Source: Chitinivibrionales bacterium
GTDB lineage: Bacteria; Fibrobacterota; Chitinivibrionia; Chitinivibrionales; FEN-1185
Length of the DNA: 64,000 nt
Reading direction: 5' to 3'
Assembly (NCBI GenBank): GCA_035516255.1
Contig: DATJAL010000009.1
Span: forward strand, 1-64,000
In this document: positions 6,301-64,000 of the stretch, piece by piece
Position numbering within the stretch: the stretch's first letter is position 1
Layout: each line of letters starts with the position of its first letter
Program-made: the position numbers and the translations under genes
Notes under the pieces: generated by a model
What the model was told of the DNA's origin: nothing
The model's database searches: none
Seen by the model: the letters and a program-made list of their open reading frames with translations, nothing else

Positions 6301-6440
6301 GGGGGAAGTCTCCCCCTGGGTCCAGCCAACCGGCGTCATGTAGGGGCGCATCATCATGCGCCCCTTTTTATTTCGCCGCCGGTTGTCTGGACCCACATCC
6401 CCTCTTTGGCGCCGAAACTCCCACGGTGTGCGAGCTTCTG
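6301..6440 (+). repeat. Family B intergenic repeat (B2a, variant 3' end) after ilvE
   Basis: The copy begins 13 nt after the ilvE stop with the hairpin GGGGGAAGTCTCCCCC. Nearly perfect 19-bp arms follow (6317-6335 and 6374-6395, TGGGTCCAG.../...CTGGACCCA), enclosing the ilvE terminator. The 3' end reads CCCCTCTTTGGCGCCGAAACTCCCACGG, a variant shared only with the copy at 43738; most copies have GGGTGCGGCCGGGTACCGG there. The right boundary is uncertain. Confidence 0.6.
6343..6369 (+). terminator. Intrinsic terminator of the leuA-leuB-cimA-ilvE cluster
   Basis: Perfect 8-bp stem GGGGCGCA (6343-6350), loop TCATCA, TGCGCCCC (6357-6364), then TTTTTA. This is a textbook rho-independent terminator 56 nt after the ilvE stop. 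It is nested inside the longer inverted repeat of family B copy B2a. Confidence 0.85.
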
Positions 6441-6537
6441 CAGTGGCTGGCGACCCGATTGCGGCAGTGCAGGCCTTACACGGTGGAAGAAGAATATTAT
6501 AGTTTTTAGGATGCCTGAAATATTTGTACTTTACAAC

Positions 6538-6712
6538 TGCGGGTCGCGGGTGCGCCCAGCGGATGGATGAATCTTGCAACTGACGGTACCCGGCCGCACC
6601 CAGGAGAGGAAAGCGCCTGCCCAACTGGGAAGGGCGGAAAGCGCTGCCGAGGACCCCGCAGTCCCGCAAGGGACGAGGAGGCCGAGGCCGGGGGAGAGGT
6701 ATCTCCCCCGGA
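6538..6712 (-). repeat. Family B intergenic repeat (B2b) after the acyltransferase gene
   Basis: Read on the minus strand it starts 11 nt after the stop of the acyltransferase gene with the palindrome CCGGGGGAGATACC/TCTCCCCCGG. A variable stem-rich centre follows, and then the conserved 3' block GGGTGCGGCCGGGTACCG, TTGCAAGATTCATCCATCCG, CTGGGCGCACCCGCG. It is one of the longest copies. No ORF of note. Confidence 0.7.
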
Positions 6713-62393: not shown

Positions 62394-62840
62394 TTAAGTA
62401 TTCTGCTGCGGGGGAACGGCTGGCGGGGGCTCTTGGGAAAGGCCCTTATTGTATTCCTCGTACATCTGCTGAATGGTCTCCGAAAGCTTTGTCCGGTTGA
62501 ACGGTTTGAACAGGCACGGGATTTTTGACGATTTGTAAATCTTGATGAGCGTGTGCTTGGGGTTGTAGCCGAAGCCGGTCATGAGCACCACCTGCGAAGC
62601 AACGCCCTTTTCCCTGAGCTTGCCGATGAATTCGTATCCGTCCATATCGGGCATGGCGATGTCGGTGAGGATGAGAAAAAAGGAGCCCTGTTCGAGCTGC
62701 GAGAAGGCCTCGGCCGTCGAGGAGGCAAGGGTCGTCTTCCATCCCAGACTCTCGAGATAGATTTTAAGAAAGTCCAGAACGTCGGCCTCATCGTCCACGA
62801 TGAGGATGCGGCGGTCAGCTTCGTTCGGTAAAGAGGCCAT
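62394..62840 (-). CDS. Stand-alone response-regulator receiver protein (second of two)
   Basis: A 148-aa cytoplasmic CheY-like protein with an N-terminal flexible tail. The DD pair is in ILIVDDEAD, the phospho-acceptor Asp in LTDIAMPDMDG, the Thr/Ser in VLMTGFG and the Lys in CLFKPFN, all present, so it can be phosphorylated. The C-terminal tail is Pro/Gln-rich with no output domain. It overlaps the upstream receiver gene by 26 bp and is last in the operon with two membrane proteins and a KaiC-like ATPase. Confidence 0.9.
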   Translation of the reverse strand: MASLPNEADRRILIVDDEADVLDFLKIYLESLGWKTTLASSTAEAFSQLEQGSFFLILTDIAMPDMDGYEFIGKLREKGVASQVVLMTGFGYNPKHTLIKIYKSSKIPCLFKPFNRTKLSETIQQMYEEYNKGLSQEPPPAVPPQQNT

Positions 62841-63192
62841 GGGTCTTGTTGAGAAGCTCCTGTTTGCCGAACGGCTTGGTGATATACGCGTCGGCCTTCA
62901 TGACATGCAGCCCCACCATCTCGTCAAAGGCGTGGGTCTTGGCGGTGAGGATCGCGATGGGGAGCTTGGCGAACTCCGGGTCGCTTCGGATCTGCTTGAA
63001 CACTTCCCAGCCGTTCATCTTGGGCATGGAGAGGTCGAGGAGCACCGCGTCGGGCTTGTATTCCTTCACCTTGTCGTAGGCCGCGGGCGCGTCGAGTACG
63101 GTTTGCACCTCGAATTCGTCGGTCTCCAGAACCAGTTTCACCAGTTCCGCTATGTCCATTTCATCCTCGACGACAATGATTTTCTTTTTCAT
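62815..63192 (-). CDS. Stand-alone response-regulator receiver protein (first of two)
   Basis: A 125-aa single receiver domain. IIVVEDEMD holds the acidic pair, VLLDLSMPKMNG the phospho-acceptor Asp, AILTAKT the conserved Thr and YITKPFGK the Lys. No output domain, so it probably signals by contact, as CheY does. It is divergent from the second receiver protein, so this is not a simple recent duplication. No histidine kinase is present in the visible part of the operon. Confidence 0.92.
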   Translation of the reverse strand: MKKKIIVVEDEMDIAELVKLVLETDEFEVQTVLDAPAAYDKVKEYKPDAVLLDLSMPKMNGWEVFKQIRSDPEFAKLPIAILTAKTHAFDEMVGLHVMKADAYITKPFGKQELLNKTHGLFTERS

Positions 63193-63205
63193 TGAACTTT
63201 TGCCC

Positions 63206-63505
63206 CTATTTTCTGAAAAATTCCGAAAAAGCCCAATTCCAGTATTTAAGGCACACTAAAAATGCGACGACCGCCGATACAACCCTTAACAGCATGGGAA
63301 TACTCTGCGGGATGTGAAGACCGAGGTCGCTGCCGATTATTTCAGAGATTGCCGTGACCGCGATGACAATCGAAGTCACGTACAGCAGGCGGTACCACGG
63401 CGGGATCTTGAGCGCAACGCCGAGGGGCCTGCTCAGATAAATGAGAATGACCATGAGGAGCACCGCCGACGCATCAAAGAGAACGATGTAGTGGGTGAAG
63501 CCCAT
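63206..63505 (-). CDS. Three-helix membrane protein in the KaiC-like operon (second)
   Basis: A 99-aa protein with three predicted membrane helices (about residues 6-25, 40-60 and 71-92) and short charged ends (terminal FSEFFRK). No family is recognised. It is 13 bp upstream of the first receiver gene and 4 bp downstream of the other membrane protein. It could be the membrane sensor or anchor for the soluble receivers, in the manner of the membrane portion of a split kinase; this is inference. Confidence 0.72.
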   Translation of the reverse strand: MGFTHYIVLFDASAVLLMVILIYLSRPLGVALKIPPWYRLLYVTSIVIAVTAISEIIGSDLGLHIPQSIPMLLRVVSAVVAFLVCLKYWNWAFSEFFRK

Positions 63506-63509
63506 GCGC

Positions 63510-63821
63510 CTATTTCCTCGGCTTTCCCATTTTAAGGAACAGGTTGGTGGAACTTATCATCGACGAGATCGCGGCCAGGATGACCAGTCCCGCCTGCAGC
63601 GCGCCGAGCATTTTGCCGTCGCCCGCGGAAACAAACACGGTGAGCGCGCACAGCAGCGAAAGAATGATGGAGACGATGAATCCAATCCTCGGCGTGGGCT
63701 CCCCGAATTTCTTCTGGTAAAATGCGGCGATGAGGTACATGGTGACGTTCAGGCACGCCACGGCGCACAGGTATGCGGCAAGGCAAAAGCGCCCGAAATC
63801 AAGCAGCATGGTGACGTTCAT
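63510..63821 (-). CDS. Three-helix membrane protein in the KaiC-like operon (first)
   Basis: A 103-aa protein with three predicted membrane helices (about residues 13-34, 46-66 and 72-94). A short Lys-rich loop (YQKKFGEPTPR) joins helices 1 and 2, and the C-terminus is basic (KMGKPRK). Its start codon overlaps the stop of the KaiC-like gene by one base (TAATG), so translation is coupled. It resembles the second membrane protein in size and helix count but not clearly in sequence. Function unknown. Confidence 0.72.
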   Translation of the reverse strand: MNVTMLLDFGRFCLAAYLCAVACLNVTMYLIAAFYQKKFGEPTPRIGFIVSIILSLLCALTVFVSAGDGKMLGALQAGLVILAAISSMISSTNLFLKMGKPRK

Positions 63822-64000
63822 TACTTTTTACCGAAAACTTTGACAAATGCGTCTTGCGGCGTGTTGTGCGAAATGCCGCTCATGATGCCCTCGCGGCCCG
63901 AGAACTTCGATTCCACCTCGATGCCGTGCGGCCCGATCTTGAAGCACCGGATGTCCTTCTGGTGGTCGCTGCCGCGCATCTTGAGGATGAGAAAGGCTTT
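63821..64000 (-). CDS. KaiC-like RecA-superfamily ATPase, C-terminal part (cut by window end)
   Basis: The last 59 codons of a minus-strand gene. LILKMRGSDHQKDIRCFKIG followed by HGIEVESKFSGREGIMSG matches the closing strands of KaiC/GvpD-type RecA-fold ATPase domains (typical ILKMRGT-x-H-x-x-x-IR...GI-x-V). The Walker motifs are outside the window. A short tail (ISHNTPQDAFVKVFGKK) follows the domain. KaiC-like ATPases act in clock, chemosensory and signalling systems. It is the first visible gene of the operon running leftwards through two membrane proteins to two receivers. Confidence 0.75.
   Translation of the reverse strand, partial: KAFLILKMRGSDHQKDIRCFKIGPHGIEVESKFSGREGIMSGISHNTPQDAFVKVFGKK

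Follow-up and report, generated by a model that had tools for sequence, protein, structure and literature searches.

The window, the 64,000-nucleotide stretch of DNA analysed here, ends in five closely packed genes encoding a KaiC-like ATPase, two small membrane proteins (TM1 and TM2) and two receivers (RR1 and RR2). An earlier note on this sequence had described such a cluster, its ATPase truncated where the window ends, and we find all frames at the positions claimed on the minus strand, with the gaps and overlaps as described. In the contig beyond the window edge the ATPase gene is full-length, with 256 aa and one KaiC domain, and further rightward extension gave argF and no second KaiC domain. 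Likewise, neither a kinase nor an output domain adjoins the five-gene set at this locus. The features are as follows (C9, positions on the contig):

63821..64000, minus strand: KaiC-like ATPase, last 59 codons; 61-89% identity across the order (33 related loci)
C9:63821-64591, minus strand: KaiC-like ATPase, whole gene; 256 aa (P0001), single domain
63510..63821, minus strand: TM1; 103 aa, three-helix membrane protein
63206..63505, minus strand: TM2; 99 aa, three-helix membrane protein
62815..63192, minus strand: RR1; 125 aa, stand-alone receiver
62394..62840, minus strand: RR2; 148 aa, stand-alone receiver
62815..62840, minus strand: overlap of the RR1 and RR2 reading frames; 26 bp
C9:64608-65585, minus strand: argF; 16 bp upstream of KaiC

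The KaiC stop and the TM1 start have one base (63821) in common, and gaps of 4 bp and 13 bp separate TM1 from TM2 and TM2 from RR1, respectively. Gap statistics from 28-35 related loci gave -29 to +17 bp between KaiC and TM1 (-4 to +17 in 34/35), -4 to +20 between TM1 and TM2 (one locus having 57) and -4 to +40 between TM2 and RR1, while the RR1 and RR2 frames share 23-47 bp in each of the 28 loci carrying both genes. Tight gaps kept in this many loci argue that the packing of the five genes is not due to chance. The RR1/RR2 frame overlap is a translational coupling.

How widely is this arrangement kept? Of 40 genomes sampled from the window's order, a Chitinispirillia-like one within Fibrobacterota, 35 have TM1; these span seven families, and TM1 was found in none of 21 genomes sampled alongside from elsewhere in the phylum. 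A search of 168 Fibrobacterota detected TM2 in 34 of the 40 and, outside the order, in a single genus with six positive genomes; 36 of the 40 encode TM1 or TM2, in one copy each. The order KaiC-TM1-TM2-RR1-RR2 holds in every locus of the order, except for loci cut by contig ends and those of family f7, two of which (L057, L061) have no receiver and three (L058, L062, L162) RR1 only. Thus, the genes co-occur across the order, and the failure to do so that would have spoken against a module was not observed. The usual neighbourhood, seen 34 times (L034-L067), reads argF-KaiC-TM1-TM2-RR1-RR2, often followed by uvrA, and four Fibrobacteria loci carry KaiC-TM1-TM2-RR1. As for the flanks, most of the order has argF as the gene immediately upstream of KaiC, as do the Fibrobacteria loci L078, L080 and L110. 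In family f7, RR2 is lost, and AMP-binding or LpxB genes stand behind TM2 or RR1 where scanned.

When genome contigs were scanned once with the KaiC alignment, relatives came up in archaea, in further Fibrobacterota and in Chloroflexota, there chiefly among Anaerolineae and Thermoflexia. Some 30 Chloroflexota loci repeat the order KaiC-TM1-TM2, and in many of them a GAF histidine kinase comes next downstream of TM2; in the Chloroflexota loci scanned, secA is found nearby upstream. In four archaeal loci (L134, L155, L156, L158), KaiC is joined by the membrane pair and by a receiver of the RR1 class, the TM1 frame of L155 and L156 being assigned by position and helix count rather than listed by the profile. 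In two of these (L134, L158) the gene row also includes a histidine kinase whose sensor domains are of Cache/HAMP/GAF type, and in L134 the receiver comes after the kinase gene. A fifth archaeal locus, L157, has no RR1, which, together with L057 and L061, indicates that an adjoining receiver is not always needed. In broad samples the pair is rare, with credible matches in 3 of 301 Chloroflexota genomes and 5 of 148 genomes of the archaeal phylum, so it is patchily distributed, perhaps in part through lateral transfer. One further Chloroflexota match (G385), of 20 bits inside a 396-aa protein, was discarded as spurious.

The Chloroflexota loci differ in one position. Immediately before KaiC, 30 of 30 carry a gene of ~125 aa that we call winged-helix-like, a reading of its sequence pattern since it has no Pfam match. 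This gene and RR1 never occur together in 75 loci: RR1 is found in 32/36 Chitinispirillia, 4/4 Fibrobacteria and 4/5 archaeal loci and in none from Chloroflexota, and the winged-helix-like gene in none of the Chitinispirillia, Fibrobacteria or archaeal ones. Nor did 21 genomes of the window's order yield a credible orthologue (one match was marginal). On this sequence evidence, the simplest reading would be a single cytoplasmic partner position that is filled either by an RR1-class receiver or by a winged-helix-like protein. Related small genes also lie beside KaiC in Bathyarchaeota and Thaumarchaeota.

RR1 and RR2 each consist of a single Pfam receiver domain (6e-25 and 2e-20, respectively). 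Both retain the acidic pair, the phospho-acceptor Asp and the Lys, the latter two invariant, and neither has an output domain. In RR1, the phospho-acceptor Asp53 and Lys106 are intact, and the signature GLHVMKADAYITKPFGKQEL recurs in the Fibrobacteria and archaeal loci; in RR2, Asp60, Thr88 and Lys112 are intact, and a GFGYNPKHT motif is present. Against the RR1 profile, the archaeal RR1s score 141-155 bits and the best receiver in the PDB 103, which argues that RR1-class receivers are a real class. RR2, in contrast, is found only in the window's order. Of the CheY-like pair proposed in the earlier note, the receiver fold of both members thus stands, whereas only RR1 belongs to the ancient core and RR2 is an order-specific addition. 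No chemotaxis gene adjoins RR1 or RR2 at the locus. A HisKA scan (PF00512) of the source genome gave 27 matches, 25 of them over the cut-off and none assignable as cognate; a cognate kinase thus exists in principle.

The membrane parts had been described as separate proteins of ~100 aa belonging to no recognised family, and this is borne out. Among 34 and 32 members of TM1 and TM2, respectively, there was no consistent match to a Pfam family; one PilS-like 6TM and one 7TMR-DISM match among the 66 were below threshold and inconsistent, and we set them aside. AlphaFold2 models predicted from the two alignments consist of three helices each, at residues 3-39, 45-64 and 70-99 in TM1 (pLDDT 87.3) and 2-32, 38-61 and 68-92 in TM2 (pLDDT 87.2). 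Neither model had a match at E <= 0.001 when compared with the PDB by Foldseek, and no known unrelated family was hit; the top matches, NINJ1 for TM1 and TRPML1 for TM2, had E >= 0.25 and were rejected. In independent profiles, TM1 of Fibrobacterota matches TM1 of Chloroflexota (95%, E 3.5e-8) and TM2 matches TM2 (99%, E 9e-20), with no match in the crossed comparisons between these phyla. TM1 and TM2 themselves match each other at profile level (88%, E 3e-6), and, going by sequence, may be distant paralogues. Apparent TM1-TM2 fusions in Chloroflexota (TM2 matches of 195-235 aa) turned out to be TM2 frames extended to a start codon further upstream, reading across TM1. The single membrane protein that follows the KaiCs of Bathyarchaeota and Thaumarchaeota has no detectable kinship to TM1 or TM2.

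Conservation and positive charge peak in the same places in both proteins, namely at helix 1/loop 1 and at the ends of helix 3 and the C terminus; the other loops are their least conserved parts. The conserved residues are I31, F34, Y35, L94 and M98 in TM1, and L24, S25, G29, Y38, Y88, W89 and W91 in TM2, the last three forming Y88-W89-x-W91. By the positive-inside rule, positively charged ends of membrane proteins face the cytoplasm, and the net positive charge of these conserved ends therefore places them on the cytoplasmic side. There, they presumably form a docking surface toward KaiC.

The ATPase scores 178 bits against PF06745 (curated cut-off, 26.6). Its part inside the window is the end of the KaiC domain and holds a conserved MRGSxH motif, the A-loop-like EGIMSG segment and a DAFVKVF tail. 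Aligned to solved KaiC, the protein keeps the residues for ATP binding and hydrolysis and the K-x-R finger; Walker A, the catalytic Glu pair, Walker B and this finger are invariant in 35 of 35 KaiCs of the order. At S431 and T432 of clock KaiC, the window protein has Pro178 and Phe179, and within the order the former position is Pro in 33/35 and Ser in 2/35, the latter Phe in 35/35. Median identities to the window copy are 72% for KaiC, 69% for UvrA, 61% for ArgF, 33% for TM1 and 40% for TM2. Judged by these values, KaiC is among the slowest-evolving genes of its neighbourhood, and TM1 and TM2 change fast.

Beyond the EGIMSG segment, which aligns with the A-loop region of the CII domain, KaiC ends in a tail of the form [F/W/M/L]xxxF, exemplified by DAFVKVF in the window, DSFVEAF in Chloroflexota and KFMELF in Bathyarchaeota. 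This motif is present in 88 of 88 KaiCs from membrane-linked lineages, a count that includes L043 and L057, where the script anchor matched too late and the printed tails contain the motif, and L124, taken as membrane-linked though it has no confirmed membrane gene. In contrast, none of seven KaiCs without a membrane neighbour carries the tail, all of them stopping before the motif; as these seven represent only two clades, they amount to at least two independent contrasts, not seven. The tail could thus be the peptide by which KaiC docks to the membrane pair. The tail-less proteins are second single-domain KaiC paralogues of Fibrobacteria and Chloroflexota (L109, L111, L112, L108, L113, L115, L116).

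What might this module do? We favour, with slightly better than even confidence, a membrane-tethered KaiC switch, in which the TM pair would hold a KaiC ring whose state is set by a kinase via RR1. TM1 and TM2 would anchor the single-domain KaiC, presumably a hexameric ring, to the inner membrane. RR1 and RR2 (the latter made in step) would be phosphorylated by a histidine kinase whose gene lies elsewhere in this genome, and phospho-RR1 would dock on or leave the membrane-bound ring, thereby setting its nucleotide state, which in turn would be read out by the receivers or further partners. In Chloroflexota, the winged-helix-like protein in the receiver's place would pass the ring state to transcription. 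Tethering of the ring is suggested by the link between tail and membrane genes, by the conserved cytoplasmic face of TM1 and TM2, and by a KaiC that keeps its ATPase residues, has its clock phosphorylation sites replaced and comes without KaiB. We infer from this an ATP-driven switch set by receiver phosphorylation; a physical complex, the direction of signalling and its output are likewise putative. Somewhat more tentatively, at just short of even confidence, we propose that the module belongs to an ancient and hitherto undescribed class of membrane-tethered KaiC switches found in bacteria and archaea alike, in which the KaiC tail would sit on a dedicated TM1/TM2 heterodimer and an exchangeable cytoplasmic partner would lead to two-component signalling or transcription.

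Several other explanations deserve weighing. Since the genes sit in a housekeeping neighbourhood, unrelated genes might have come together by chance, the more so as the surrounding argF, spoVG, rplY, pth, rpsF, rplI, dapA and uvrA are also conserved in the order. Yet KaiC-TM1-TM2 recurs in the same order next to secA in Chloroflexota and next to ABC-transporter or kinase genes in archaea, with neither argF nor uvrA, which leaves this explanation with next to no probability and points to an old, undescribed signalling device instead of a chance cluster. A Kai-type circadian or hourglass clock comes to mind because the closest solved relatives of the ATPase, found with a KaiC profile, are cyanobacterial KaiCs (E 2e-89) and its C-terminal part, A-loop-like segment included, aligns with CII. 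The protein is, however, a single domain of 256 aa without tandem CI-CII, its S431/T432 pair is replaced by Pro and Phe in nearly all members, and the source genome, 97% complete, has no match to KaiB (PF07689). One domain, no phosphorylation pair and no KaiB make a clock highly improbable, and short KaiCs lacking both KaiB and phosphorylation sites were judged unlikely to restore full clock function (PMC5520375).

More serious is a sensory role, in which TM1 and TM2 would perceive lipid, potential or quinone state and alter KaiC activity, with the receivers or the winged-helix-like regulator as outputs. That the pair stays behind KaiC in loci lacking a receiver (L057, L061, L157), looks like a set of distant paralogues as a sensing heterodimer might, and is far more variable than KaiC (33-40% vs 72%), as expected of a sensory part, speaks for it. 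Its outward loops, however, are short and least conserved, the conserved residues are cytoplasmic, and the adjoining kinases of other lineages already bear GAF, Cache or PAS sensor domains; we thus regard a sensor as rather unlikely. Still less do we expect KaiC to drive the assembly or motor of an envelope machine with TM1/TM2 as platform and the receivers as switch. ArlH is indeed a single-domain KaiC-like ATPase on a membrane platform, and the KaiC profile also finds FlaH among the solved structures (E 8.5e-9), but cyanobacterial KaiC matches much better, no structural gene of any kind, be it for a pilin, a PilB/ArlI-type ATPase or a PilC/ArlJ-type platform, was seen in the neighbourhoods examined, and the genes linked there encode kinases, receivers and winged-helix-like proteins. 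Of the two functions raised in the earlier note, an undescribed signalling module is well supported by co-occurrence across the order and by a core found in another phylum and in archaea beside kinases and winged-helix-like genes. A positioning module is not: KaiC belongs to the RecA-type ring ATPases and not to the ParA/MinD kind, and the surrounding genes encode nothing positional.

KaiC-like ATPases are widespread. Makarova, Galperin and Koonin reportedly described KaiC-like signal transduction hubs in archaea in 2017, in which single-domain KaiC-like ATPases are linked to input and output genes, receivers included. This study of archaeal KaiC hubs is cited in PMC5847659 and PMC13286277. 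Our module resembles such hubs in that its single-domain KaiC is linked to genes of two-component systems or for DNA-binding proteins, namely receivers at this locus and, among relatives, kinases and winged-helix-like genes, and differs in having a bacterial branch in Fibrobacterota and Chloroflexota where the hubs were described for archaea. With the KaiABC clock it has in common the KaiC fold, intact ATPase residues and a CII-like C-terminal part with an A-loop-like segment; unlike the clock, it consists of one domain with replaced phosphorylation sites, has no KaiB and has membrane partners. The 'minimal tool set' survey (PMC5520375), in the portion available, reports short single-domain KaiCs (~250 aa) that are mostly archaeal with few bacterial cases, lack phosphorylation sites and, in bacteria, occur without KaiB; our protein, too, has one domain, no phosphorylation sites and no KaiB in its genome. 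That portion gives no neighbours, and the membrane and receiver partners are added here. ArlH/FlaH is likewise a single-domain KaiC-like ATPase at a membrane platform, but is remote in sequence, and no motor or pilin genes were seen at window-type loci. KaiC-REC fusions reported in Methanosarcinaceae (PMC5847659) also link a KaiC ATPase directly to a receiver domain and indicate that both can function as a single unit, albeit fused in one chain and, in the part of that source available, with no membrane pair mentioned. In the papers searched we found no account of the TM1/TM2 pair, the receiver/winged-helix-like exchange, the tail motif or the module in Fibrobacterota or Chloroflexota, while an earlier archaeal mention is possible.

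The module names likely direct partners of a KaiC, namely the two membrane proteins and whichever of receiver and winged-helix-like protein fills the interchangeable position, and can be tested with four small genes. If true, the tethered switch would make KaiC-based signalling common to bacteria and archaea and operative without the clock phosphorylation sites, and two new membrane protein families, TM1 and TM2, would gain a context.

Some loci fit the membrane-tethered model poorly. Besides L057 and L061, these are L160:5880-6914 (G415, Chloroflexota), where the winged-helix-like gene, TM1 and TM2 stand in a row with KaiC missing between them and no KaiC was found in the assembly, and L154:6418-7018 (G477, an archaeon), where TM1-TM2 lies apart from the KaiC genes of the genome. 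The L154 pair adjoins a PIN-domain gene and a phosphoribosyltransferase gene.

Winged-helix-like genes also appear in other company. In Bacillota (L137, L140, L142, L144 and, similarly, L138, L141, L145; ~6400-6700), a two-domain KaiC is followed by a winged-helix-like gene of 83-85 aa and then by a protein of ~700 aa, a likeness to the Chloroflexota pattern that was judged by eye. In an Actinomycetota MAG (L114:1214-2793), KaiC is accompanied by a winged-helix-like gene and by a single membrane protein of 122 aa, which has roughly four hydrophobic stretches.
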